Made by a program: the position numbers and the translations under genes. Positions 1,225 to 39,384 of a stretch of 40,823 nucleotides of DNA are shown here, piece after piece. Numbering within the stretch: the stretch's first letter is position 1; every line of letters starts with the position of its first letter. The stretch spans positions 1 through 40,823 of the forward strand of contig JAGQPS010000015.1 in the NCBI GenBank assembly GCA_020426595.1, in the 5' to 3' direction. This stretch comes from Planctomycetales bacterium (lineage in GTDB: Bacteria; Planctomycetota; Planctomycetia; Pirellulales; Pirellulaceae). The notes under the pieces were generated by a model. It saw only the letters and a program-made list of their open reading frames with translations, made no database searches and had not been told where the DNA came from.

Positions 1225-4200
1225 ATGCACGCAGTGACGCTCACTTCCGAGTCAAATTCCTCCGCTGCCGAGCACGCGTTACCGGCACGCCTGAATCACC
1301 TGCTGCACCAGCTTGAACACGCGGCTCATCTCTTGCCGGCTCAAGGGCCAATCCGAGTCTTTGTTCACCACAATACGCTGCATTCGTTTGAGGAACTGCC
1401 CTTCGACAAGGCCGTGGTCGCCGGCGCCCGGACGTTTTCCTGCCAACCTTATCTCGCGGAAAGCCGCTACCGGGACTTCTTACAGCGTGGCCGGATCCGA
1501 ACCGAGGATCTTCAGGCCGTGCTCCGCGATGACCTCGGCGAGCGCGCTGGAGACAAGGTCGCCAATCTCTCGAGCCGCTTGGACATTCGCTCCAGCATGC
1601 TGGGCTATTCGCTTCGCTCGGCTCCGACGGCGGAGTTGCGATGGCTGGTGGCGGAGACCGATGCTCTGAACCGATTTCGCTCCGAGGCTCCTTCCGCCGT
1701 CCGCGAGGGCTTTATCGACGAAACGCGTCGCTGGATCATGCGAGACTGGCGCAACGGTCATCGGCCGCAATCGACAACCGGCGAGCCCGATGGGGCGGAG
1801 TTGGTCACGTCGCTGCTCGAGCAATTCGGTCGCAAGTCGATCGAGCGTTGGACGGCAGCTCAGTGGGAAGCCATCTCGCTGCAGCTCACTTGGCGACTGT
1901 GTCTTGCCGGAGCGCGTCATTTCCAACCAGCGGCTCCCCAACCGACCGCGGCGAGCCGGCGGCATCGCACCGTGCTGTTCGAGGCCACGGGTCTGGACAT
2001 CGACCTCTGGGTCGACGACGTGATGATCCGCTTTTGTGGAGCGTTCCTCGACCAGGGTTTCGCCAGGTGGCCGTTGCCGGACCGTAGTCGCGGATTCTTG
2101 CGGTCGTTCTGCGAACTCTACGACCGGCTCGCTCCCATCGAGTCGTGGATGAAGCAACTCGGCAACGAGCTGCAACGAGTCCGTTCGTCGAAGCAATCCG
2201 CGTTGGCGTTGATCGCCGAGATTCTTGACGACCTCGGTGTGGAGCAGGGGGAGACGGCGGACTTCATTGGAGCGACCTTGCTCGCGCTGCGTGGCTGGGC
2301 CGGCATGGTATGGCAAGTCGAGACGCGCGGTGATCGGGCCGTCGTGCCGATTCCTCATGGGAGTCTCGTGGAGTACCTCGCGGTTCGGTTGCTGCTCGAG
2401 CGAGTCGCGCTCAACCACGCCCAGCGGACCGTCACGAAGTTCCGTGGCCCCTTGTCCCAGCTCCGTCAGGCACTCGCGCCGCCCGAGCGCGCGGAGAGTC
2501 AAGGGCTGGAGCAGCGAGCCTTTCGACTGTTTCAGTTGGCTCAAGTTCTCGGTTGGTCTCCCAATTGTCTCTACGGGCTATCTCCGACTCAGTGGGAAGC
2601 GCTAAGCGGTGAGGTCGAGGCGTTTCATGGCCTCGAACGAAGACGTGTGCTTCAGGCCGCGTATGAAAGGAACTACCGACAGAAGGTGTTGGACGCGCAC
2701 GCGATTCGCAACCGCCTGCCGGTCGAGCGTCCCCGAGAGCCACTCTTCCAAGTCATCACGTGCATTGATGATCGCGAGGAGAGTTTCCGACGACACATCG
2801 AGGAAGTCGAGCCGCGCGCCGAGACGTTTGGGGCGGCCGGGTTCTTCAGCGTCGCCATGTATTATCGCGGCGCGGGGGACGCTCAGTACGTACCGCTCTG
2901 CCCCGTGGTCGTGCAGCCGCAACATTTCGTCCGCGAGGACGTGATGGTGACTTATGAGGAGTCCCATAAGCGGCGAGCCAAGACCCGCCAGGCTCTTGGC
3001 AATGCTTCCCACTCGGTGCATGTTGGCAGCCGAACCATCGCGGGCGGAGCCTTGTTGACCGGATTGTTTGGGCCACTGGCGTCGGTGCCGCTCGTCGCCC
3101 GAGTGTTGTTTCCTCGCTTCACCGGGCAAATCAAGCGATTCGCCAGTCGACTCGTCCAGCCCCCGCCCATGACTCAGTTGCAGTTGGAACGCTCGGCGCC
3201 AACTCCGGGCAACCACGAAGAGGAAATTGGCTTCTCCGTCGAGGAGATGACCAACATTTGCGAGCGATTGCTCCGCGATATGGGGCTCACTTCCAACTTC
3301 GCGCGGCTCGTGCTCGTGATGGGGCACGGCAGCAACAGCCTCAATAATCCGCACAAGAGCGCGTACGACTGTGGTGCCTGTGGCGGTGGCGCGGGAGGCC
3401 CGAACGCGCGAGCCATTTCCGAAATGATGAACGATCCACGAGTCCGGGAGGGACTCGCCGCCAGGGGTCTGACGCTGACCCGAGACACGTATTTCGTGGG
3501 AGCGTTTCACAATACGTGCGACGATTCGATCACCTATTACGATCTCGAGCGATTACCCAAGAGCCATCAACGGTCGTTCGGCGACGCGTTCCGGGCCATT
3601 GACGAGGCATGCGATCGCAACGCGCACGAACGCTGCCGTCGATTCGTCTCGGCTCCGCTCTCCCTGACGTTCGAGCAAGCTCGGCGGCACGTCGAGGCGC
3701 GCAGCGAGGATCTGGCTCAAACACGCCCCGAGTGCGGCCACGCGACCAACGCGATTTGCATGGTCGGGCGGCGCGAGCGCACTCGCGGTTTGTTCATGGA
3801 TCGACGAGCCTTCTTGACGAGCTACGATCCGACGCAGGACACGGCCGACTCGGCGATTCTGACTCGGATTCTCCAGGCCGTCGTCCCGGTCTGTGGTGGC
3901 ATCAATCTCGAGTATTACTTTTCCTACGTCGATCCGACCGGCTGGGGTTGCGGCACCAAACTTCCCCACAACGTCTCGAGCATGCTGGGTGTGATGGACG
4001 GTCCATTGAGCGACCTGCGCACCGGGCTCCCGTGGCAGATGGTCGAGATTCACGAACCGGTGCGGCTGTTGTTCGTGATCGAGTCGACTCCCGAGCGACT
4101 ACGGGGCATCATGCAAGCCAACCCGCCGATCGCCCGCATGATCGAGAACCACTGGGTGCAGTTGGCCACTCTTTCGCCCGACAACGACGAGATTCATGTT

Positions 4201-4353
4201 TACGAGCGGGGCGAGTTCCATCGGTATCAACCTGAAGTCGATTCCTTGCCGAACGTCGACAACAGCGTCGAGTGGTACCGAGGTTGGCGCGACCACCTTG
4301 GTTTTGCCCTCGTGCGACCGTCCTTGCCAACAACCAACGAGAAGGGTCGGTAG
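1225..4353 (+). CDS. dabA: DabA-type inorganic carbon transporter subunit (DUF2309)
   Basis: DabA is the cytoplasmic, zinc-containing, carbonic-anhydrase-like subunit of a two-part system that accumulates dissolved inorganic carbon using the ion gradient across the membrane. The protein is about 1042 residues, near the family's usual length. The four metal/catalytic positions are visible: C513 and D515 in CIDDREES, H701 in VMGHGSNS and C716 in YDCGACGG, with the family's 15-residue spacing between His and the last Cys. The start is uncertain. I chose the ATG at 1225; a GTG at 1234 lies better spaced from AGTAGG, and a GTG at 1147 would add 26 unconserved residues. The stop is three bases from the next start, so it is the first gene of a tightly coupled operon with two membrane subunits. 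No Rubisco or carboxysome gene is nearby, so the role is probably supply of bicarbonate for anaplerosis or growth at low CO2. Confidence 0.9.
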   Translation: MHAVTLTSESNSSAAEHALPARLNHLLHQLEHAAHLLPAQGPIRVFVHHNTLHSFEELPFDKAVVAGARTFSCQPYLAESRYRDFLQRGRIRTEDLQAVLRDDLGERAGDKVANLSSRLDIRSSMLGYSLRSAPTAELRWLVAETDALNRFRSEAPSAVREGFIDETRRWIMRDWRNGHRPQSTTGEPDGAELVTSLLEQFGRKSIERWTAAQWEAISLQLTWRLCLAGARHFQPAAPQPTAASRRHRTVLFEATGLDIDLWVDDVMIRFCGAFLDQGFARWPLPDRSRGFLRSFCELYDRLAPIESWMKQLGNELQRVRSSKQSALALIAEILDDLGVEQGETADFIGATLLALRGWAGMVWQVETRGDRAVVPIPHGSLVEYLAVRLLLERVALNHAQRTVTKFRGPLSQLRQALAPPERAESQGLEQRAFRLFQLAQVLGWSPNCLYGLSPTQWEALSGEVEAFHGLERRRVLQAAYERNYRQKVLDAHAIRNRLPVERPREPLFQVITCIDDREESFRRHIEEVEPRAETFGAAGFFSVAMYYRGAGDAQYVPLCPVVVQPQHFVREDVMVTYEESHKRRAKTRQALGNASHSVHVGSRTIAGGALLTGLFGPLASVPLVARVLFPRFTGQIKRFASRLVQPPPMTQLQLERSAPTPGNHEEEIGFSVEEMTNICERLLRDMGLTSNFARLVLVMGHGSNSLNNPHKSAYDCGACGGGAGGPNARAISEMMNDPRVREGLAARGLTLTRDTYFVGAFHNTCDDSITYYDLERLPKSHQRSFGDAFRAIDEACDRNAHERCRRFVSAPLSLTFEQARRHVEARSEDLAQTRPECGHATNAICMVGRRERTRGLFMDRRAFLTSYDPTQDTADSAILTRILQAVVPVCGGINLEYYFSYVDPTGWGCGTKLPHNVSSMLGVMDGPLSDLRTGLPWQMVEIHEPVRLLFVIESTPERLRGIMQANPPIARMIENHWVQLATLSPDNDEIHVYERGEFHRYQPEVDSLPNVDNSVEWYRGWRDHLGFALVRPSLPTTNEKGR

Positions 4354-4356
4354 TCC

Positions 4357-5745
4357 ATGAACTGGGATCCTTGGTTTCTATCGTTGGGTTTGGCGACGGT
4401 GATCGCACCGACCGTCCTGACGATCGTCCTGTCATTGCCGGCTCTGATTAGCCGCCCGCTGGGCGAGGGAACGATCGCCCGATTGACGCAGGTCTCGGTC
4501 GTCGTGGGACTCGTTTCATCCATCGCGATCCTGGCGTTGATGCTGTTCACGGGCAGCCGGGATGTCCCGATCGATCTGGGCACGTGGGTGCATTTGGAGG
4601 AACAAGACTTCCACTTCAGTGTCCTGTTCCGATTCGATCGCCTTAGCGTCCCGTTCGCGATCTTGACGTTCGTGCTTTGCGGAACCATCAGCGCTTTCGC
4701 CAGCAAGTACTTGCATCGCGAACCGGGCTATGTCCGCTTCTTCGTCCTGTTCTCGTTCTTCCAACTCGGCATGATCATCGCGAGCCTCGCGGCCACGATC
4801 GAGACGCTGTTCGCGGGATGGGAACTGGTGGGTCTTTCGAGCGCCTTGCTCGTGGCGTTCTTCCAGGAACGTGTTTCACCCGTTCGCAACGGTCTGCGCG
4901 TCTGGGCGGTTTACCGAGTCGCGGACGCCGCGTTCCTGGTCGCCGCCGTGGCGCTGCACCACATGACCGGCAAGGGTGACTTCTTCAAGTTGATGGGCGA
5001 GACTCCCTGGCCCGATGGAACGACGGCTCTCGCGAGCAACCAAGCGTTCTTCGTGGGGATCCTGCTGTTGATCGCGGCGGCCGGGAAAAGCGCGTTGGTG
5101 CCGTTCAGTGGTTGGCTGCCTCGAGCCATGGAAGGACCGACTCCTTCCAGCGCGGTGTTCTATGGAGCCCTTTCGGTTCATCTCGGAGCGTTCTTGTTGT
5201 TGCGTTTCAGCCCGATCATCGAGGCAGCCGTCGCGACTCGAGTCCTGACCGTCGCGCTCGGACTCGGTACGGCGCTGTTCGCGACCTCGGCGGCTCGAGT
5301 CCAAACCGATATCAAGACCGCGCTAAGCTTCGCATCGCTAACTCAAGTCGGTTTGATCGTCGCCGAGATCGGCTTTGGTCTGTATTACATCGCCTTGATC
5401 CACATCATCGGACACGCGTGTCTGCGAACCTTGCAACTGCTCCGGGCTCCCTCGCTGTTGCGTGACTATCACTCACTCGAAAACGCGATTGGTGGGCAGC
5501 TTTCCACGGAGCGTCCGGAGGAAGAGCGAACCGGCGTGTGGCTCAGTCACGTCTGGTATCGCTGGGCGTTCGATCGCGGATTACTTGACGCGGGCCTCCA
5601 GCGAGTGTTCGTCGATCCCTTCCTGTCGATGTTTCGTCTATTCGACCGTTGGGAACGAAAATGGACGGACACGCTCAGCGGTGGCGAGTCTCGGGAATCC
5701 GATCGCGTGTCGGCTCACATTGACTCGTTGGAGGACTTGGCGTGA
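4357..5745 (+). CDS. dabB: DabB-type NuoL-like proton-conducting membrane subunit
   Basis: This 462-residue polytopic membrane protein belongs to the proton-antiporter (NuoL/MrpA-like) family and should couple ion entry to DabA. The conserved core is clear: [11 protein letters not shown] with E156, and [20 protein letters not shown] with K244, matching the Glu and Lys essential for proton movement in complex I antiporter subunits. The usual HAATMV motif after PTP is replaced by [10 protein letters not shown]. The protein is shorter than NuoL and ends in a soluble tail of about 100 residues, as in DabB. The ATG follows the dabA stop by three bases and the stop overlaps the next GTG by four bases (GTGA), so the three genes are translationally coupled. 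The gene name rests on the adjacent DabA; on its own it would be called NuoL-like. Confidence 0.87.
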
Positions 5746-7418
5746 TCGAGCTGCACATTCCTTGGCTGGAACTCGCCGTCCTCTTGCCCGCGTTGGGAGC
5801 CTTGCTGCTTGGTCGCGGAGGCCGTCCCGAGGTCAATTGGTATCGCAGCGTGTGGTTCAATGGCCTGACTCTCGTCTGCGCGACCGGCGCGTGGTGGGAC
5901 TTTGGCACGCTGCACACCTGGGAAGCCCACGATCGCTGGAGCGTCTTCTCGACCGTGTTCGGTCATGAGATGTTGGTGATCGACGAGCTCAGCGCCCCGT
6001 TGTTGCCGTTGGCCGCGTTGCTTTACTTGCTCACGACCCTCACCACCCTGCGAACCAAGCAGCGGCGATTCTCGTTTTCGTGGAACCTGCTTTCCGAGTC
6101 GATCCTGATGGCCACGTTGGCTTGCAAGGATCCTTGGGGAGTCATCGCGCTGCTGACCCTGGCGACATTGCCACCGGCGATCGAATTGCGAGCCCGCGGC
6201 CGGTCGCTCCGCGTGTACGCGCTGCACATGGGACTGTTCGTCGCGCTGATGATCATCGGCTACGCGATGGTCGAACGTGCGGGACGAGACGCGGTGCATT
6301 CGGCTTGGGCGATGGCTCCGCTGATCGCCGCCGTATTGATTCGCAGCGGAGTCGTTCCGCTGCACTGCTGGATGACCGACCTCTTCGAGAACGCCACGTT
6401 TGGTACCGCGTTGCTGTTCGTGACTCCGATGACCGGCGCTTACGCGGCGATGCGATTGATCATGCCCATCGCGCCCGACTGGGCTTTGCAGAGCATCGCG
6501 GTCCTCTCGTTGTTAACCAGCGTGTACGCGGCCGGGATGGCGATGGTGCAACACGAGGCAAGGCGGTTCTTCTGTTACTTGCTGCTGAGTCACGCATCGC
6601 TGGTGCTCGTCGGTTTGGAACTCGCCACGCCGATCGGTTTGACCGGCGCGCTGAGCATCTGGCTGTCGGTCGGACTCTCGCTCGGCGGCTTTGGGCTGAC
6701 GCTCCGCTGTATGGAATCGCGGACCGGTCGCCTGACGCTCGATGGCTTCCACGGCTATGCCGAGCAAGCTCCCGTCTTGGCGAGCTTCTTCTTGTTGACC
6801 GGATTGGCGAGTGTCGGTTTTCCGGGGACGATCGGTTTCATCGCCATCGAACTCATGGTGGAGAGCGCCTTGGACGTCTTTCCCGTCGCCGGTCTCGCGG
6901 TGATTATCGCGGCCGCGATCAACGGCATCGCGGTCGTGAACGCTTTCTTCCGCATCTTCACGGGCACGCGGCACATCACGACGATCTCGCTCGGCTCGCG
7001 CCCCCGCGAACGATTCGCGGTGCTGACGCTTACACTCTTGATCTTGGGAGGAGGCCTGTATCCCCAACCAGGGATCCACTCGCGGCACCATGCCGCCATG
7101 AAGTTGTTGGAGGAACGAGCCCAATCGGGAGCGATCACCGACGAATCGCTGAAGCGAGAGCTGTCGGGCGAGCACGACGGTGATACGGAAGACGATGGCG
7201 ATCCGGAACACGATGGCGATCCGGAACACGATGGCGATCCGGAACACGATGGCGATCCGGGACAGGATGGTGCCGGAGGACAAGAGGGCGGATTGGAGCA
7301 AGAAGTCGCTCCGGGAATCGAGGACAATGCGGAGCCGTCCGGTGCGGTGCGACTCGGCGGTGACGAAGTGATCAGCGTGCCGCCGACCACGGGAGTTTCC
7401 GAGGACACTCCGAATTAG
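5742..7418 (+). CDS. NuoM-like membrane subunit with acidic repeat tail, third gene of dab operon
   Basis: This 558-residue protein has about a dozen hydrophobic segments up to residue 460 and the fold of the proton-antiporter family, closest in outline to NuoM. It starts with GTG in a four-base overlap with dabB. The central motif reads [21 protein letters not shown], so the lysine expected in NuoM is R201, and the TM5 region ([17 protein letters not shown], about 130-145) lacks the usual WEL glutamate. It may therefore be a structural or altered-coupling subunit. Residues 466-558 are hydrophilic and acidic, including tandem DGDPEH repeats near 480-507. Well-known Dab systems have a single membrane subunit, so this is probably a second membrane half of a three-subunit variant. 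An unrelated antiporter subunit captured in the operon is the alternative. Confidence 0.75.
7176..7265 (+). repeat. 18-bp tandem repeat inside the NuoM-like gene
   Basis: The unit GATGGCGATCCGGAACAC occurs exactly at 7194-7211, 7212-7229 and 7230-7247, with a variant fourth copy at 7248-7265 and a diverged copy at 7176-7193. Each unit encodes DGDPEH. The near identity suggests recent slippage, so copy number may vary between strains. Confidence 0.95.
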
Positions 7419-7571: not shown

Positions 7572-10500
7572 CTAGGCGACGAGCTCGTCGTCCGATGCGG
7601 ACTCCGATCGTTCGATCGCTTCGTCCGAGATTTCTCCGTCGTCGCTCACGTCCTCGAATCGCACGCTGACTCGCTTGCTGATGCCCGATTCCTGCATCGT
7701 GACACCGTAAAGCGTGTTGGCCGCGGTCATCGTCTTCTTGGAGTGCGTGACGATGATGAACTTGGTCGTATCGAGGAAGCCCTTGAGAACATCGACGAAA
7801 CGACCAATGTTGGCTTCGTCGAACGGCGCGTCGACTTCGTCCAGCACGCAGAAGGGGCTAGGTCGGTGCTGGAAAATCGCCATCAACAAGGCGACGGCGG
7901 TCAGCGCCTTTTCGCCACCACTCAGCAGTGAGTTGCTGAACTCCGGCTTGCCAGGCGGAGTCGCCACGATGTCGATCCCGGCCTCGAGTATGTCGGCGTC
8001 TTGTTCGACCACGAGATCGGCCTTTCCACCGCCGAACGAGCGACGATAAAGCACTTGGAAGTTGGCGCGAATCGCCTCCAACGTTTCGGCGAACATCCGT
8101 CGACTATCGGCGTTGATTCGTTCGATGATCTTCTCGAGTTGGGACTTGCTGTCGATCAAGTCTCGATACTGAGCGTCGAGCATCGAGAAGCGTGCCTCGA
8201 GTTCGTTCAATTCATTGAGCGCGTCGAGATTCACGGCGCCGATCGCGTTGATCTTGCGGCGGAGCGATTCGATTTCTTGCTCGATCTCCGAGCGATCGGT
8301 GTCACCACCCTCGGGCTCTTGCACGTCGATGGAACTGATATCGATGCCATAATCGTCGCGAAGTCGCTCGGCGAGCTTGGCTTTCTCCAATTGCAGCTGG
8401 CCCAGCTCCAACTCCAATTTATGCAGTTCCCCCTCGAGTCGCCGCTGCGTTTCGCGAGAGCGTTCCAGTACGTCAAGCGCCTCGCGTCGACGAGCGTTCA
8501 CGGTTTGACGTTCGCTCTGCAGTTCCTTGACTGCTTGATGAAGTTGCTGGTGTTCCCACGCGGCCAGCGCGATTTCCGTCGTGGCGGCGAGCTGTCCGAG
8601 CATTGCTTGCCGCAGGGCGGACTCGGCCCGCTGGCATTGCCCCAGTGTCTCGGCGAGCGTCGTGCATCGTTCGTCGCGTTCTTCCCGCAGCGTCTCGGCC
8701 CGAGTCTCCTCGTGGGCCAGCATTTGCTCGGCTTTCGCTCGCGCTACTTCCGCGTCGGTGAGTCGCTTGGACATTCCAGCGAGCTCTTTCTCCACGCGCT
8801 TGAGTTCACTTTGCCGCTCACCCAGGCTGGATTCACCTTCGCCAATCCGGATCGAGAGATCATCGATGGTCTCGCCGGCTTGGTCATGCTGGGCATCGAT
8901 TCGCGATTTACGGTCTCGCTTTTGGACAACGTCTTGTTCGCCATCAGCGATGTCGGCCAGAACTCGTTCGACCTTCTGAGCGATGGACTGAAGCACGAGT
9001 TTTTGTTCGCCGAGTCCCTTGGCGAGTTCTTGTTGCTGGCCGCGAAGCAGAGTGACCTCGCCTTGCTTTTGCTCGATCCGGTCGCGAAGTTCGATCAACT
9101 CCCCTTGAATGACATCTTGGCGTCCCTCGAGATCGGATAGTTCTCGCTTCAGGGCTCGCAACTCACTGCGGCGCGAAACAATGCCGAGCCCGCGGCCTCG
9201 AGGTCCGACCGACACGGTTCCGTCGACATCGACGATCTGACCGTCGAGCGTGAGATAGCAGACGTCATGCGCTCGCTCGGACCGCAAACGCAGCGCGTCG
9301 TCGAGCGACTTGACGATCCATGTTCCGCCTAGCAACTGAGTCGCCAGTTCGCGAAACCCGGATGCCGTTTGCACCATTTGGTCGGCCCGCCCGACGACGC
9401 CCTCGAGCCCCGCGAGATCGGGCCGAATGGCGGCTGGTGGCCGAAACCGACCGAGCCGCAACAGGACGACTCGGCCTTCCAACACCGTGGCGCCGCTCGC
9501 GACGGAGCGAATCAAACCGTCGTCCTCGACGACGACCGCCTGGGCCATTTCCCCGAGCGCCGTATCGACGAGCTCGGCTTGTTGCACTTGGACTTGGATC
9601 AGATCGGCCACCATGCCGACGACCCCTTGGAACTGAGGCGACTCGTTTTGTTGAGCCGCTCGCAACACCTGCTTGGTTCCAGCGGTGATGCCCTCGAGCT
9701 TTTGCTCCAACTCCTCGATCACGGCGGCACGTTGCTCGACGCCGTGATATTGGTTTCGTAGGGTCGCCGCTTGCTCTTGAAGCTGATCACGGCGCCGCGT
9801 GGCTCGGTCGAGCTCGGCCGAGGTTCCGGCCAGCGCGGTGGACCGCGAGTCCATTTCTTCCTCAAGCGAGCGTTGCTTGGCTTTAGCCGCTTGCTGTTCT
9901 TGCGCGAGCTGTTGTTGGTCGAGCCCCCATCGCTGCAGCCGAGCATCGAGCTGATCGATTTGCTGCTGCAGCTGGTTGCCTTCTTGCTCCAAGAGATCGC
10001 GAGTCCGCTCGGCTTGAGCCAAGAGCGATTTCTGTTCGGCGAGCTCCGTCCGGCCTAGCTCGATCGATTCGCGAAGTTCGTTGGATTGGGCTTGGGCCGA
10101 TTCGATCGAGGAACGAGCCGATTCGACTTGGTCGCTCGCGGCCCGGTACGTGAGCTCGGCCTCGATCAAGACCTGTTCATGGGCATCGAGTTGCCTGAGG
10201 AGTTCGGCATCACGTCGGCGCTGCGCGTGGTATTGTCGCCGGAGCGGACCAATTTGTTGCTCGAGTTCCTCGCCGCGCGAGTGTTGCAGCTTGCGAAGCG
10301 ATTCCTGTTCGGCCAACCGGCCTTTCACCGCCGCCAGACGACTTTCCTCGCCCGCGGCACCCTCGACGATTTCGCTCAGCCGCGATTCGGCGACTTGGAA
10401 ATCGGCTTCGGCTTGTTCGACCCGCGCGCTCGACTCTCGCAACGCTTCCTGGAACGAGCCTTGATCATCGAGCAACTGAGTTTCACGCTCCGTCATGCGG

Positions 10501-11207
10501 CGCCAATCGACTTGGCCCACGAAGGTGCGTAGCTCCTGAAGTCGCTGAGTGCATTCCTGGTAGCGAACCGCCTTGGAAGCCTGGGCCCGCACGGTACGCA
10601 AGCGATTCTCGACTTCCTCGACGATGTCCGAGAGCCGCAGGAAATTCTGTTCGACTCGAGCCAGACGACGCTGGGTCTCGATCTTCTTGACCTTGAAGCG
10701 ACTGATCCCGGCCGCTTCCTCGAAGATGGCTCGTCGGTCCTTCGGCGAGGCCTGTAGCATCCGGTCGACCTTGCCTTGCTCGATCAAGCTGTAGGCATCG
10801 GTGCCGGCTCCCGTGCCGCGAAACAGATGGCGGATATCCTTGAGGCGACAGGGCTCGCCATTGATCAGGTACTCGCCCTCGCCATCCCGATAGACCCGCC
10901 GCGTGACTCGGACCTCATCGGCATCGAATTCGAATCGCCGATCGGTGTTCTCCAGCACGATGGAGGCTTCGGCCATGCTGGCTGGCTTGCGCCCACCTCC
11001 GCCGGCTCCCTTGAAGATGACATCGGCCATGTCCTTGCCGCGGAGTCCCTTGGCGCTTTGCTCGCCCAGAACCCACTTGATGCCATCGACGATGTTCGAC
11101 TTGCCCGAACCATTGGGACCGACGACCACCGTGATTCCCGGTGGAAACTCAAACCGAGTCTTGTCGGCGAAGCTTTTGAAGCCGACGAGTTCCAAGGCCT
11201 TGAGCAT
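7572..11207 (-). CDS. smc: Chromosome segregation ATPase SMC
   Basis: SMC dimers extrude and hold DNA loops to condense and separate chromosomes. The protein is 1211 residues, the usual SMC length. The N-terminal head carries Walker A (GPNGSGKS, residues 30-37). Long coiled coils rich in Glu, Gln, Arg and Leu span about 170-510 and 670-1010, around a hinge at roughly 520-660 ([11 protein letters not shown] onward). The C-terminal head has the signature [10 protein letters not shown] near 1095 and Walker [12 protein letters not shown] near 1120. The N-terminus [17 protein letters not shown] is typical, which fixes the ATG at 11207 although its ribosome-binding site is weak. The partners scpA and scpB are not in the window. 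It faces the dab operon tail to tail with no obvious terminator between them. Confidence 0.97.
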
Positions 11208-11537: not shown

Positions 11538-13466
11538 CTAGCGACTGAACCAACCACCGACTCGCTCGAATAGGTTGGGAGACTCCTCGGGCACGAGCTG
11601 GTCGATCGACTCGGTCGCGAGTCGTTGTCCACTGTCATTCCGCCAGTCGGGAGCCGAATCAATCGGCTCATTGAACAGGCTCGGAAGATCCGGCTGTGCC
11701 GTGGTGAGTTGTCCCGGTTCGCGATTGTAGCGCCGGTTCGGATCGGGAATCGCATGGACCGCGAGCTGGCCGGCCAGCATGCGATTGGCGTCGACTTGGC
11801 GGAACATCCGCAGCATTTCGCCATAACGCACGCCCAACGCTCCGAGCGTGAAGATCAACTCCTCGAGCTGAGTCGAGGTAGTCCGCACTTGATCGCCCGA
11901 GGGATCGTACTTGCTGACCTGTAGGCTCCCGTCGCCCATTCCTTTCACCGTCAGGCCCGTCCCGACGTACAGGAACTGATCCGACACACGTTGATCATGG
12001 CCAAAGATGACGACTTCTGGCTGCCGAACTCGCGAGAAATGGAGCGCCGGCGGCCCGCTGCTGTTGAGCGAATGGAGACGGAACTCGTTGTTGATGTTGC
12101 GGCCAGACACCGTCGGGTCGTAGGGCGAGCGAACCAGCATGGCTCGGAACGCGCCGTATCGAGTCTCGATGTCAGGATGATTGAGCAGGTGCTCGAGAGC
12201 CGCGCCCGCCTCGACGTCATCCATGCTGGCGAGGGCGGTGATCGCATGCCAGCGGAAGGTGGGAATGTTGTTGGCGATCTCCCCCAACACGCTCGCTGCT
12301 TCGCGGACGCCTTGGTAAGCGAGCCCCTCGGCGGAAAGGAATCGAACCTCCGGGTCCGGATGCGAGAGGCCTCGCAAGAGAATTGGTTGGGCATCGCGGC
12401 CGATCGCCTCGAGTCGAGCGGCGGCGGTTCCGGCGGACAGCGGGTCACCAAGCTGCTGAGCCAATTCCTCGAGCAACGGCCCGCGCATCGCGGCGGTTTC
12501 ATTGAACGACAAGTGGCGAATGACTTGCAGGTACCGACCAATGTTGTGCTGGTATTGCTTGGGAATCATCAGCTCGATGATCTTGTTGTCCTTGGGCGTC
12601 GCCACGCCAGTACGAGCACCCTCGAAGTAGGTGTCGAATCGTTCATTGATCGTACGGGCGATGCGAACCGTCGCCACGACGCTCTGCGCATCGTCGCGAA
12701 TGAAGAGCCCGATGGGGCGATTTTGGAGAGCGACTCCGCCGCCGAGGACTCGACCATGGAGCTCGAGCGTGTCGTCACCTTCCCAGAAGACACTGTCGAC
12801 CAGGATCGAACCCTTGGCCATGCTCAGCAGGTGGCCGGTCCGCACGGCGGCTCCGACGACTTCGGCCGTGGTCAAACGGGTTGAGAGCAGCGTGCCGCCA
12901 TGGAGACTCTTGGTGTCCGATCGCCTCGGCACGTAGACCTCGACGTCATACGTATCTCCTTTTTGGATTCCGGGAGGCAACAAGCCTCGCACGATCACGA
13001 GGGACGTATTGGGGTCGTTGAGCACGGCATTCGCGTCGGGAATGTCGTGGATCTTCATTTCATTGAGCAGGCGTCGGCGGAGGTCATCGGCGGGAGGCGA
13101 GGAGCCGGTTCCCGACAGATTGGTGACCAGCGAGATGCCTTCGACCTTGGCGAAGTTCGTTCCCCAGACGCCTGCGATCTCACCGATGAAGCGTGGGCGA
13201 GAGACGTCGAAATACTCTTGCTTGAAGTGCTCGGCGTCGCTTTCGTCATCCTTGCCGAAGAACGACTTGCAGCCAGCGAAGAAGGCGGCCCCAAGCGACA
13301 GAAAAGCACGCCGCGACCAAAAGAAGCCGCCGGGTGGGATGGCTCGATCGGAAAGGCCAAAATCCTCGGGCGTATGGTTGGAGCTCGAGTGGGCCGTGGC
13401 GAGTTCGCCCCCAGCGGTAGGTTGGCCGGATGATGGTTGGCTGGTCTCGGACCGACGCGCTTCCAT
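11538..13466 (-). CDS. Lipoprotein with FlgI (flagellar P-ring) domain and HEAT repeats
   Basis: I chose the ATG at 13466 (642 residues) because GAGGG lies 8 bases upstream; a longer frame begins at ATG 13541 without a good site. Residues near 50-66 read SRRAFLSLGAAFFAGC, a twin-arginine-like signal ending in a lipobox Cys, so this should be an exported lipoprotein, although the cytoplasmic stretch before the signal is unusually long. Next comes a FlgI-like region (KVEGISLVTNLSGTGSS, then VVGAAVRTGHLL and the GGVALQNRPIG stretch), as in the P-ring around the flagellar rod. It is followed by about five HEAT-type helical repeats (near 320-440) and a C-terminal domain of unknown role. True FlgI is about 370 residues, lacks HEAT repeats and is not a lipoprotein. 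No flagellar gene is adjacent, so a ring-forming or scaffolding envelope role other than the flagellum is possible. Confidence 0.75.
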   Translation of the reverse strand: MEARRSETSQPSSGQPTAGGELATAHSSSNHTPEDFGLSDRAIPPGGFFWSRRAFLSLGAAFFAGCKSFFGKDDESDAEHFKQEYFDVSRPRFIGEIAGVWGTNFAKVEGISLVTNLSGTGSSPPADDLRRRLLNEMKIHDIPDANAVLNDPNTSLVIVRGLLPPGIQKGDTYDVEVYVPRRSDTKSLHGGTLLSTRLTTAEVVGAAVRTGHLLSMAKGSILVDSVFWEGDDTLELHGRVLGGGVALQNRPIGLFIRDDAQSVVATVRIARTINERFDTYFEGARTGVATPKDNKIIELMIPKQYQHNIGRYLQVIRHLSFNETAAMRGPLLEELAQQLGDPLSAGTAAARLEAIGRDAQPILLRGLSHPDPEVRFLSAEGLAYQGVREAASVLGEIANNIPTFRWHAITALASMDDVEAGAALEHLLNHPDIETRYGAFRAMLVRSPYDPTVSGRNINNEFRLHSLNSSGPPALHFSRVRQPEVVIFGHDQRVSDQFLYVGTGLTVKGMGDGSLQVSKYDPSGDQVRTTSTQLEELIFTLGALGVRYGEMLRMFRQVDANRMLAGQLAVHAIPDPNRRYNREPGQLTTAQPDLPSLFNEPIDSAPDWRNDSGQRLATESIDQLVPEESPNLFERVGGWFSR

Positions 13467-14472
13467 GCTCATCTCCCTCAAAGTCCTCTCGAGATCGGCC
13501 CGCGACGGTTGGGTCGGGGCGGTCTTGAAAGGGCCGGGCATCCTTGCCCACGTGGCTTACGTGCGAGCCTTTCGTTCGGTCGATCAGGCCGACGAAACTA
13601 GCTCGGGTGATTCGAATGGGGGACGGTAGTGGGACTCCCCAGGAGTGTCAATATCGTTCGGTCATCCCGCGGGAACGGCGGTCGAGCGGAGCACGCCGTT
13701 GCAGGTTTATGGAGCCACGCATGGGCTTGTTGCGAATCGATACACCTTGCCGATTTACGCTGGGATGGATCGAACAGTGGCTCGAGATTCGCCGGGAGGC
13801 CATTCGACTCGAACTTGACTCCGGCATGCGGAAATACCGGGCTTTCGCACGTTTCGGTCGGATTTCTCCTGGTTGGCATCGCGCTTGCCTTAAGGGAACC
13901 GCAACGTCGGCAATCGTTGTCGACGGGCCAGCCCGTGAGGTCCTGGCGCGTTGGGGTCGTCCGTGGTTGCCCCCACAATCGCGAGTCATCGGCCGATCGG
14001 CCCAGAGTCGATCCGCCAGGAGCCTCACTTTTTTATTCATCGCACCGTTCGCCGTCGGTGGTCCCGCGTTCCCTGTGACTTACCTCAGGGTGGACGCGTA
14101 TTCCCACCCAACGAAACGTCGAACCAGCCAGATCCGCTGGGAAAGCGTTCGGGATCAGGGCGAACGGGTTATTGAACGTTCCCCAGGGGGAATGAAAAGG
14201 GATCAAAGCCGGGACAAGACGGGGGGATAGGAGAGGCGATTGAGGGTGAGAGAAGGTCGTCACATGTGGACCTCTGTGGCTCTCATATCTTCAAAAACCT
14301 CTTCCACCGCCCGTTTTCCTTGCTCACCCAAGAGCCCCCAATTACCATGAATGGAGTCCTCGCGGAGAGCCCATGTGAAGTGGCTGTTCGCGAGGCTTTT
14401 CGGCTTACCTGCTCGCATCTTCTCCATCGCGGCTTCCGCGGCGAAACGAGTCCTGTTTGGAGGTCTTCATCT
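13467..14472. other. 1-kb divergent intergenic region
   Basis: This separates the leftward FlgI/HEAT gene from the rightward DUF1598 gene; the first 75 bases could be coding if the upstream ATG at 13541 is used. Several open frames cross it on both strands, but all are Arg/Ser/Pro-rich, lack ribosome-binding sites and overlap one another, so I call none. A small palindrome, TTCCCC-A-GGGGGAA, lies near 14178-14192. The stretch is long enough to hold a small RNA or an untranslated leader, but I cannot identify one. Confidence 0.45.
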
Positions 14473-36918: not shown

Positions 36919-39384
36919 TCACTTCTTCTTGGGATCACGCCGCTTCTGACGTCGACGGCGTTCTTCCTCGATTCGAGCCTGTCCGGCGCTCTTGTCTCGA
37001 GCCGCCTCGTCGGCATCGACTTCGGTCGTCTCGATCGAGGCGATGCGGCCGTCGATGCTTGGCTTGGGGAGAACCTTGCGCTCGACGATGCCCCACAAGC
37101 TCGAGGTGATGAAGTAGATACACAGTCCCGAGGGAACCTTGAAGAACATCAACCCCATGAAGACCATCATGAAGGTCATCATCTTTTGGGTCGCTTTTTG
37201 TTGTTCGTCGACCGCCGGCGGCATGAACATCTTTTGCTGAATCAGGAACAGCACGATCGTGATGATCGGCAGCACGTTGAAGTAGGGACCAAGCCAGCCG
37301 GTTTCCGACGTGAGGAATGGCGCCCAGTTGCCCCATTCGAAGAGTCGATCGGGACCGGCGAGGTTGGAACACCACGACAAACCGGGGAGCAGCGATTGAT
37401 CTCGCAATTCAACGTCCACGCTCAGGCCTCGGTAGAGTCCGAGGAAGATGGGGAGCTGGATGAACATCAGCAAACAGCCGCCCATCGGATTGTAGTTGTA
37501 CTTGCGGAACAACTCCTGCTGAGCCTTGGCTCGCTTCTCCATGTCGTTCTTATACAGCTCGGCGATCTTCTTCATCTCCGGCTGCAGGTGCTGCATCATT
37601 TGAGCGTTCATCGCCGCTCGTCGGCTCACTGGAATCATCGCGGCCCGCACGACGACGGTCAGCATGATGATCGCGATGCCATAGTTGCCCACGATCATGT
37701 AGAAGAAGTGCAGCGTCCAAACCAAGGGCTTCGAGAACAGCGCGAACCAGCCGTAGGAGACGACTTCGTTGAGATTGTATTGCTCGAGGAGTTCCGGAAA
37801 CTTCGGTCCGGTGAAGATCGTGAAGTCGTAGGTCTGTCCGTCGCCGCCCGCCGCCGCATCGTAAGGCTCGACCTCCAGCGGCATGGTCTGCAAACGAAAA
37901 CTCACATCGGTTCGTCGCCGTTGCTTGCGATCGATGTCGCTCGGGTCCTGCGTGACATCGACCGAGCCAGAGAAGCAAGTAAACGGGGGTTGTCCCTCGG
38001 CCACTTCGGGAATCATCGCGACATTGAAGTACTGCGTGTCCACGGCGGCGAACTCGACCGTGCGATCATCGGTGTCATAGGTTTGCGGGAAAATCTCTAA
38101 CCGGCTGCCGTCCTCCTGGAGCGCGTTGGCGACGATCTCGGGACCACCCAAGAATCGGAATCCGAGCCCTCGACTCGACCCTACCACGTCTCGGCTACCC
38201 GCCGTGTAGAAGATGGCGGTGGAACGACCGTGGATCTTGTTGAGATACCACCATCCTTCCTCGGGCAACCCGGTGGGACCGCCGAACTGCACCGCGAGCC
38301 GCTGCACCTCGGTGGTTTGGTTGCGAATCTCGAATTGCATCTCGAGGTGATACGACCGATCGAACTCCGGTAGTCGAGTCGGCTCCGAGACCTGGGCTCG
38401 TCGGGCGATACGGAATCGCTTGATCAGCGTGATCGGACCTTGCAGCCGGGTTCCGGCCAATTCCTTATCCGTCAAGACGTAGTGAAACGTCACGAGGTCT
38501 TCGTCCGCGGGGGCGTCCGAGGCGTCACCGGGTTCGCCAACCGCCCAATCCGCCGTGGTCAAGTCCACGGTAGGCGCCGTGAACAGGCCATTGACGATGC
38601 CACCGACGACCGTGGTGAACGACGGAGGATTCCAAAGGTCCGGATCGCTCGTCTCCTGAGGGAAGGGCTGGATCACTTCCATGGGTCGAGCCAACAACTC
38701 GGCGGTCAACGTCAACGGCGAACCATCGCGTTGGACTTTGATTTCCAGCTTGTCGCCCGGCTTCGTGCGACCGAGTTTGGCGAAGTAGTCGCCCGCGTCG
38801 AGCACCGGCTCACCCGCCAACTCGACAATCAAATCGCCCGGTCGTATTCCGACCGTGCCATCGCTGGCCGCGGCCTGTGCGGCGGGAGTGCCACTTCCCA
38901 CGAAACGGACGATCGCACCGGAGGAAGTCAGCTCCGTCTCGACCTCAAGATTGCCAAGATATCCAGCGCGGTCATCGACGTGCTTGAAGCGAAACTGGCC
39001 ATCTGGCTTGCGATCGGAAAGTTCGATTCGGCGGACGCTGCCACCTCGGGAATCGAGCGTCACCAGCATGCGATACGGGGAATCGCTCGAGAGTGATCCG
39101 AGCCCGACGAGTTCGGGCGCGGCGACGAACGGTGGTTCCTCGGGGGTTTCTGGGCCCGCATTGTCTCCGGTCCCATCACCCGAACTTGGTTCCGTGACCT
39201 CGCCATCGGTCGAAGTCGAATCTCCCTCCGATCCTTCGTCGGTTCCAGACGGATCCCCGTCGCCATTCTCTTGGGCCAGTCGGTTCGGCGGAGCTTGCGG
39301 GGGATTGAGGATCGGTTCGAGAGCGATCCAGGAAAGCAGGACCACTGACGAAAGCAGAATGAAGGTGATGGCACGTCGATCCAC
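36919..39384 (-). CDS. yidC: Membrane insertase YidC with a PDZ-like periplasmic insertion
   Basis: YidC inserts and folds inner-membrane proteins, alone or with SecYEG. The 821-residue protein is far longer than E. coli YidC (548). TM1 is residues 5-25, followed by a low-complexity acidic Gly/Ser/Thr/Glu linker (38-85). The periplasmic domain begins near 90, but residues about 165-232 (GIRPGDLIVELAGEPVLDAG, then GDKLEIKVQRDG) read as a PDZ-like domain inserted into it. The insertase core with five TMs starts near 540, with the conserved Arg in LTVVVRAAMIPVSRR, the coiled hairpin QMMQHLQPEMKKI and a basic C-terminus (KKK). The GTG start at 39384 is preceded by a weak GGAT element. MnmE follows, a conserved pairing; rnpA and rpmH, usual upstream neighbours, are not seen. 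Confidence 0.95.
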   Translation of the reverse strand: MDRRAITFILLSSVVLLSWIALEPILNPPQAPPNRLAQENGDGDPSGTDEGSEGDSTSTDGEVTEPSSGDGTGDNAGPETPEEPPFVAAPELVGLGSLSSDSPYRMLVTLDSRGGSVRRIELSDRKPDGQFRFKHVDDRAGYLGNLEVETELTSSGAIVRFVGSGTPAAQAAASDGTVGIRPGDLIVELAGEPVLDAGDYFAKLGRTKPGDKLEIKVQRDGSPLTLTAELLARPMEVIQPFPQETSDPDLWNPPSFTTVVGGIVNGLFTAPTVDLTTADWAVGEPGDASDAPADEDLVTFHYVLTDKELAGTRLQGPITLIKRFRIARRAQVSEPTRLPEFDRSYHLEMQFEIRNQTTEVQRLAVQFGGPTGLPEEGWWYLNKIHGRSTAIFYTAGSRDVVGSSRGLGFRFLGGPEIVANALQEDGSRLEIFPQTYDTDDRTVEFAAVDTQYFNVAMIPEVAEGQPPFTCFSGSVDVTQDPSDIDRKQRRRTDVSFRLQTMPLEVEPYDAAAGGDGQTYDFTIFTGPKFPELLEQYNLNEVVSYGWFALFSKPLVWTLHFFYMIVGNYGIAIIMLTVVVRAAMIPVSRRAAMNAQMMQHLQPEMKKIAELYKNDMEKRAKAQQELFRKYNYNPMGGCLLMFIQLPIFLGLYRGLSVDVELRDQSLLPGLSWCSNLAGPDRLFEWGNWAPFLTSETGWLGPYFNVLPIITIVLFLIQQKMFMPPAVDEQQKATQKMMTFMMVFMGLMFFKVPSGLCIYFITSSLWGIVERKVLPKPSIDGRIASIETTEVDADEAARDKSAGQARIEEERRRRQKRRDPKKK

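Follow-up and report, generated by a model that had tools for sequence, protein, structure and literature searches.

A conserved three-gene dab operon of planctomycetes with an additional NuoM-like subunit

Background

What might a DAB system do with two antiporter-type membrane subunits rather than one? The question is raised by a 40,823-nucleotide stretch of DNA from a Planctomycetales bacterium (contig JAGQPS010000015.1 of assembly GCA_020426595.1; hereafter the window), in which dabA, coding for a beta-carbonic anhydrase (beta-CA)-like zinc subunit, is followed by g2, which encodes a DabB-like and NuoL-like subunit, and by g3, which encodes an extra NuoM-like subunit. How DAB couples proton flow to CO2 hydration is an open question, and the current model is built on a finger glutamate of DabA and on channel residues of DabB. 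DAB2 of Halothiobacillus neapolitanus (DabA2-DabB2, PDB 9rd0) is held to couple the proton motive force to CO2 hydration (PMC13144422). A large natural family in which the zinc site is preserved, the residues of the model are missing and a NuoM-type extra subunit is present offers a natural experiment on it. The arrangement itself was noticed previously by COGNAT in 2017, which listed NuoM and SulP genes beside DabA without function (PMC5700660). Our literature searches found nothing specific on planctomycete DabA; judging from the literature searched, the fixed residue set, the truncation of g2 and the prevalence of the system are new.

Results

The three-gene operon is widespread in planctomycetes

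A first-pass annotation of the window had proposed a three-gene dab operon with an extra NuoM-like subunit, and its genes and coordinates were right (Table 1). The three genes form a single operon: 3 nucleotides separate the dabA stop from the ATG of g2, and g2 and g3 share the four-base stop/start overlap that had been pointed out. An alternative dabA start is possible at a GTG at position 1147. To define the spread of the arrangement, we sampled about 60 loci with long-type DabA and 80 loci with g3 from a GTDB genome scan, and removed duplicates. We identified dabA-g2-g3, in the same order and on one strand, at 112 non-redundant planctomycete loci, and in no case out of order. The overlap between g2 and g3 measures 4 nucleotides in 54 of these loci and 1 nucleotide in 27. 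Named sources of the g3 loci from the GTDB scan include Rhodopirellula baltica, Lacipirellula limnantheis, Botrimarina, Bythopirellula, Thalassoglobus and Schlesneria, together with many metagenome bins, and divergent versions of the system occur in distant planctomycete families. Loci that do not show the full arrangement comprise contig or region ends, one mid-type locus, cases of broken or split genes, and the Schlesneria-type loci. Gene order and residue signatures are still seen in homologues 37-72% identical to the window proteins, which excludes chance. The annotation had also asked whether the third gene might be missing from close relatives, or g2 and g3 be the halves of a fused DabB. 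The former is answered by the genus mate of the host (L098), which carries g3, as well as by the 112 loci where g3 accompanies the other two genes; no fused g2-g3 was seen. Long g3 frames of up to ~1080 amino acids in distant planctomycetes proved to arise from 5' extensions that run out of frame over g2, the two genes being separate.

DabA is present in 121 of the 199 genomes of the host family. Among the 112 genomes with matches listed, 95 have the long DabA, 51 the short canonical one, 37 both and 4 a mid type, the types being assigned by match length and score, with the split short copy of the host genome added by hand. The commonest Dab system of this family is therefore an uncharacterised long form, found in bacteria that are not expected to fix CO2.

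In the phylogenetic tree, g2, g3 and canonical DabB each form one group with strong support. The g2 proteins lie nearer to DabB than Escherichia coli NuoL does (support 95/78), and g3 falls on the NuoM/NuoN side. The long DabA also form one group in a quick tree (Shimodaira-Hasegawa-like approximate likelihood ratio test, 100). Since each of the three is monophyletic, they appear to have been passed on together. On plasmids, every DabA match fell below 60% identity and none spanned 80% of the query; the six plasmid loci that we inspected (from Actinomycetota, Pseudomonadota, Bacillota and Haloarchaea) read dabB-dabA, with one DabB each.

We also recorded the neighbours of the operon. A same-strand SulP-family gene follows g3 in 77 of the 122 loci with sufficient flank, a beta-CA gene occurs at 18 of them, and a divergent histidine kinase and/or NtrC-type regulator lies upstream in 33 of 89 loci. 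The window copy has none of these next door. The sulP and beta-CA neighbours fit a role in inorganic carbon.

Long DabA retains the zinc site and has lost the finger glutamate

Residues were counted in 60 long DabA of one family (window included) with four distant long DabA in addition, in 54 g2 sequences plus 6 distant members, and in 57 g3 sequences plus 6 distant members; the homologues are related, so that these counts are non-independent events. We used DAB2 numbering as published (PMC13144422) and E. coli NuoL and NuoM numbering. The DabA2 and DabB2 sequences were taken from PDB alignments, against which the cited DAB2 numbers were checked.

The window DabA aligns with DabA2 (9rd0_A) at 236 bits. 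The zinc ligands of DAB2 (Cys351, His524 and Cys539) and its Asp353-Arg355 dyad are conserved in all 60 long DabA, in agreement with the annotation, which had described the metal residues as intact (C513, D515, R517, H701 and C716 in the window). The finger has changed. Replacing Glu444 of DAB2 by Ala or Gln abolishes activity (PMC13144422), and long DabA has a small residue at this position (G613 in the window); the four distant members have G, A, L and L, and the aligned finger hairpin is acid-free in 59 of the 60 sequences. A second change affects Leu658, which is strictly conserved across 150 DabA2 homologues and corresponds to Gln or His in beta-CAs (PMC13144422). Nearly all long DabA have His there (H839), as do all four distant ones. 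Since DAB2 tolerates L658Q, L658G, L658A and L658N (PMC13144422), this His by itself need not alter function. Finally, Ser356, beside the Asp-Arg dyad, is Glu (E518), a fixed difference between long and short DabA. Both Glu444 and Leu658 are present in nine short DabA, in DabA2 and in six DabA of Actinomycetota, Pseudomonadota, Bacillota and Haloarchaea; the mid-type DabA that we checked have Leu at 658.

The g2 subunit departs from canonical DabB

The g2 proteins retain E144, R175, D178, K229, K305 and H334 of NuoL, and nearly always H338. The annotation had held that DabB keeps its canonical Glu (E156) and Lys (K244). Both residues are indeed invariant and NuoL-like, but the Glu is not a DabB feature. 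At the corresponding position, planctomycete DabB have V, L, I, M or T in 24 sequences and a gap in two more, DabB2 has I151, the host's own canonical DabB has I, and six DabB of other phyla have S, I, G, V, L and T. Because canonical DabB has no Glu there, E156 is a departure from the DabB pattern. Two further positions have changed in g2. Every canonical DabB checked, including those of other phyla, has His at H260 and Lys at K347, and mutation of either in DAB2 impairs or abolishes activity (PMC13144422). In g2 these residues are Tyr (Y269) and Arg (R357), the latter overlooked by the annotation.

Among the family models, g2 scored highest with NuoL and g3 with NuoM. Comparison with PDB sequences gave 148 bits for g2 against NuoL/ND5, higher than the 83 bits against DabB2 of DAB2. 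An AlphaFold2 model of g2 built from the 54 sequences (predicted local distance difference test, pLDDT, 80) has 11 predicted transmembrane (TM) helices and a C-terminal lateral amphipathic helix. It superposes on NuoL (7p7e_L) with Z 41.6 and a root mean square deviation (rmsd) of 3.3 Å over 407 residues, spanning NuoL residues 1-560. The model thus predicts that g2 is NuoL minus TM12-15, the beginning of the lateral helix being retained. In DabB of DAB2, TM12-15 are tilted or repositioned and admit the DabA finger (PMC13144422).

The g3 subunit has a full NuoM fold and charges of its own

Among PDB sequences, g3 is closest to NuoM (74 bits). Its AlphaFold2 model (57 sequences, pLDDT 87) has the full NuoM fold and matches NuoM/Nqo13 (4he8_G) with Z 45.2 and rmsd 2.1 Å over 439 residues, and NdhD of NDH-1MS (6tjv_D) with Z 44.1 and rmsd 2.5 Å over 444. 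DAB2 (9rd0) was absent among the listed fold matches of g2 and g3, in a fold library that runs to April 2026. As annotated, R201 occupies the TM7 lysine position and is invariant, and it does not align away from the functional lysine; the TM5 glutamate of the WEL motif is likewise missing from 62 of the 63 g3. Residues E144, R175, D178 and H334 of the NuoL channel are lost as well, while g3 has invariant charges of its own in R201, E325 and E370. An Arg at the NuoL K342 position of g3 was seen in one of two alignments, and we make no claim on it.

The annotation had drawn from R201 and the missing glutamate a split between a catalytic DabB of the normal kind and an altered additional subunit, with possibly different ion coupling. 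The split was not supported: residues invariant in canonical DAB across phyla are changed in g2 (H254 to Tyr, K342 to Arg, and TM12-15 predicted to be missing) and in DabA (E444 to a small residue, S356 to Glu, L658 to His). From the sequences, ion coupling is probably altered, although for reasons other than R201. The TM7 Lys position in six canonical DabB of other phyla is Arg, Pro or Gln in four, the two Arg being those of Nocardia and Mycolicibacterium, and R201 is for this reason weak evidence for altered coupling. No report of K234R, K229R or K342R mutants was found in the searched literature.

Table 1. Coordinates of the dabA-g2-g3 operon and of the residues discussed, numbered from the first letter of the window
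Feature	Position	Strand	Evidence
dabA, long type, 1042 aa from ATG 1225	1225..4353	+	beta-CA-like zinc subunit; PF10070 800 bits (cut-off 25)
C513-x-D515-x-R517-E518 (zinc ligand Cys, Asp-Arg dyad, Ser356 to Glu)	2761..2778	+	C, D, R in 60/60
G613, site of DabA2 finger Glu444	3061..3063	+	G32/A15/S11/T2 in 60 long DabA
H701 and C716, other zinc ligands	3325..3372	+	60/60
H839, site of DabA2 Leu658 (beta-CA transition-state Gln/His position)	3739..3741	+	His 58/60, Asn 2/60
g2, DabB-like/NuoL-like subunit, 462 aa	4357..5745	+	PF00361 127 bits and Proton_antipo_N; NuoL model 202 bits
E156 = NuoL E144	4822..4824	+	E in 60/60 g2
K244 = NuoL K229	5086..5088	+	K in 60/60 g2
Y269 at NuoL H254 / DabB2 H260	5161..5163	+	Y in 60/60 g2
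R357 at NuoL K342 / DabB2 K347	5425..5427	+	R in 59/59 g2
GTGA, g2/g3 stop/start overlap, 4 nt	5742..5745	+	read from sequence
g3, NuoM-like extra subunit, 558 aa, acidic repeat tail	5742..7418	+	PF00361 68 bits; NDH_I_M (NuoM model) 139 bits
R201 at TM7 Lys (NuoM K234 / NuoL K229)	6342..6344	+	Arg in 63/63 (57/57 near, 6/6 distant)
E370 on broken TM12	6849..6851	+	E in 57/57; D4/E2 in 6 distant members

Other features of the window, the host genome and related loci

The acidic EHDGDP tail of g3 is encoded by an 18-bp tandem repeat of 5.4 copies (window 7173-7270), a region that varies among homologues. The next gene after g3 is a convergent SMC gene (7572-11207), which adjoins, on the minus strand, a 667-amino-acid protein in which HEAT repeats come after a flagellar P-ring (FlgI) domain (11538-13541). 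A YidC-like protein whose N-terminal part contains a PDZ domain is encoded on the minus strand at 36919-39384.

The host assembly is fragmented (5.96 Mb in 867 contigs, of which the window is C66) and 91% complete. Within it, no large RuBisCO subunit was found, and no NuoL, NuoM or NuoN beyond DabB, g2 and g3 was found either there or in the genus mate; most relatives carry NuoL/M/N, unlike the host genus (two assemblies). We therefore ruled out that g3 is a stray complex I subunit. A second, canonical dabB-dabA pair lies elsewhere in the host genome (L092:7000-11254, contig C732), its dabA in two overlapping frames owing to a frameshift or an assembly error. The sole PF00484 match of this genome belongs to a SulP-carbonic anhydrase fusion in an 806-amino-acid frame (C244:8275-10545).

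We also noted three loci with mid-type dabA. At L220:7933-18484 the gene heads a complete Mrp Na+/H+ antiporter operon, with the order dabA-mnhE-(mnhF)-mnhG-MbhD/E-like-mnhB-mnhC-NuoN/D-like-NuoL/A-like-NuoM/D-like. A mid-type DabA is also found in a complete Mrp operon at L219:86-12241, with sulP upstream. At L218:1-5321, an 840-amino-acid protein with two antiporter domains is encoded directly upstream of mid-type dabA. No report of the DabA-Mrp combination was found in the searched literature, and it is perhaps more striking than the three-gene system.

Discussion

On balance, and with modest confidence, we favour the reading that dabA-g2-g3 encodes a three-subunit DAB (DAC) variant, which would carry out energy-coupled capture of CO2 as bicarbonate in a heterotroph through a rewired ion path. 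DabA would probably be seated on g2, which is itself predicted to lack TM12-15, where DabA docks in DAB2, and g3, a complete NuoM-type subunit, would probably stand beside g2 as NuoM stands beside NuoL. Influx of an ion, most likely H+, through g2 and g3 would then drive one-way hydration of CO2 to bicarbonate in the cytoplasm, for supply to the carboxylases of the heterotroph. With the finger acid gone, our specific guess is that g3 E370 on TM12 may provide the acid of the periplasmic half-channel, for which it is the obvious candidate. A bolder form of this reading treats the system as a separate class of energy-coupled carbonic anhydrase, in which E370 replaces the finger acid that gates DAB2, a beta-CA-type His stands in the active site, and both catalysis and coupling run through two membrane subunits and not one; we offer it tentatively, as possible and rather doubtful.

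Several observations weigh against the proposed three-subunit variant. As aligned, Glu444, K347 and H260, all critical in DAB2, are not kept in long DabA and g2, and the DAB2 proton path therefore cannot carry over unchanged. Four Schlesneria-type loci (L157, L161, L162 and L167) have g2-g3 without an adjacent dabA; their genomes have long-span dabA elsewhere, up to three per genome. SulP, moreover, is usually annotated as a sulfate permease, and bicarbonate as its substrate is assumed.

The system could instead be a two-subunit DAB in function, with DabA-g2 working like DabA2-DabB2 and g3 serving as a structural or stabilising add-on. The clustering of g2 with DabB and the loss of several channel residues from g3 speak for this, but positions invariant in canonical DAB are changed in both g2 and DabA, and g2 is predicted to lack TM12-15. 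In addition, g3 is strictly retained alongside dabA and g2 with its own invariant charges. We consider this explanation unlikely. We also see little probability in Na+ coupling or Na+/HCO3- symport, in which g2 and g3 would be a sodium-translocating pair like MrpA and MrpD. MpsAB has been argued to use Na+ (PMC13144422, PMC6689103), and the related mid-type dabA genes lie within complete Mrp Na+/H+ antiporter operons. The window operon, however, has none of the Mrp small subunits MrpB, C, E, F and G; the NuoL/MrpA-specific TM8 His, studied for its effects on Na+ (PMC4938563), is Tyr in every g2; and DAB2 itself is independent of Na+ (PMC13144422). A reverse or other reaction, such as bicarbonate dehydration or another zinc reaction that drives ion export, is very improbable: COGNAT proposed an exergonic reaction with ion export (PMC5700660), and the beta-CA-like His at 658 and the Ser356 to Glu change could alter direction or substrate, but the PF10070 systems assayed to date supply dissolved inorganic carbon (DIC; PMC13144422, PMC6689103), the type of zinc site is unchanged, and the SulP and beta-CA neighbours suit DIC uptake.

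Our preferred three-subunit variant can be set against the known systems. It differs from respiratory complex I in that no full NuoL/M/N set was detected in the 91%-complete host genome. MpsAB of Staphylococcus aureus shares a PF10070 and NuoL-type pair and the supply of DIC to a heterotroph, but has a single antiporter subunit and a claimed coupling to Na+. Cyanobacterial NDH-1MS (NdhF3-NdhD3-CupA) likewise joins a CO2-hydrating subunit to NuoL-type and NuoM-type subunits. It has an electron-transfer arm and CupA, whereas the zinc protein of the planctomycete system is a beta-CA-like DabA; the likeness is one of analogy only. DAB1 of H. neapolitanus is likewise a DAC of three subunits whose first-numbered gene is dabA, but the third of its proteins, hneap_0908, has been described as a small membrane protein and not as a NuoM homologue (PMC13144422). 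The COGNAT clade C neighbourhoods, in which ybcC (DabA) precedes a nuoL homologue and NuoM and SulP genes lie nearby, are very probably the same system; they were reported as neighbourhoods alone, with no residue analysis, structure or carbon role, and the main text names no planctomycetes (PMC5700660). With DAB2, finally, the planctomycete system shares the PF10070 zinc subunit with its C-D-R...H...C site, the hydrophobic finger hairpin and a NuoL-type membrane partner. It differs in the extra NuoM-type subunit; in DabA, which is longer, with inserts around 141-232 and 414-468, lacks the finger Glu and carries His at 658 and Glu at 356; and in g2, which has Arg for K347, Tyr for H260, Glu at DabB2 position 151, and 11 predicted TM helices plus the lateral helix in place of the 15 TM helices, TM12-15 included, of DabB2.

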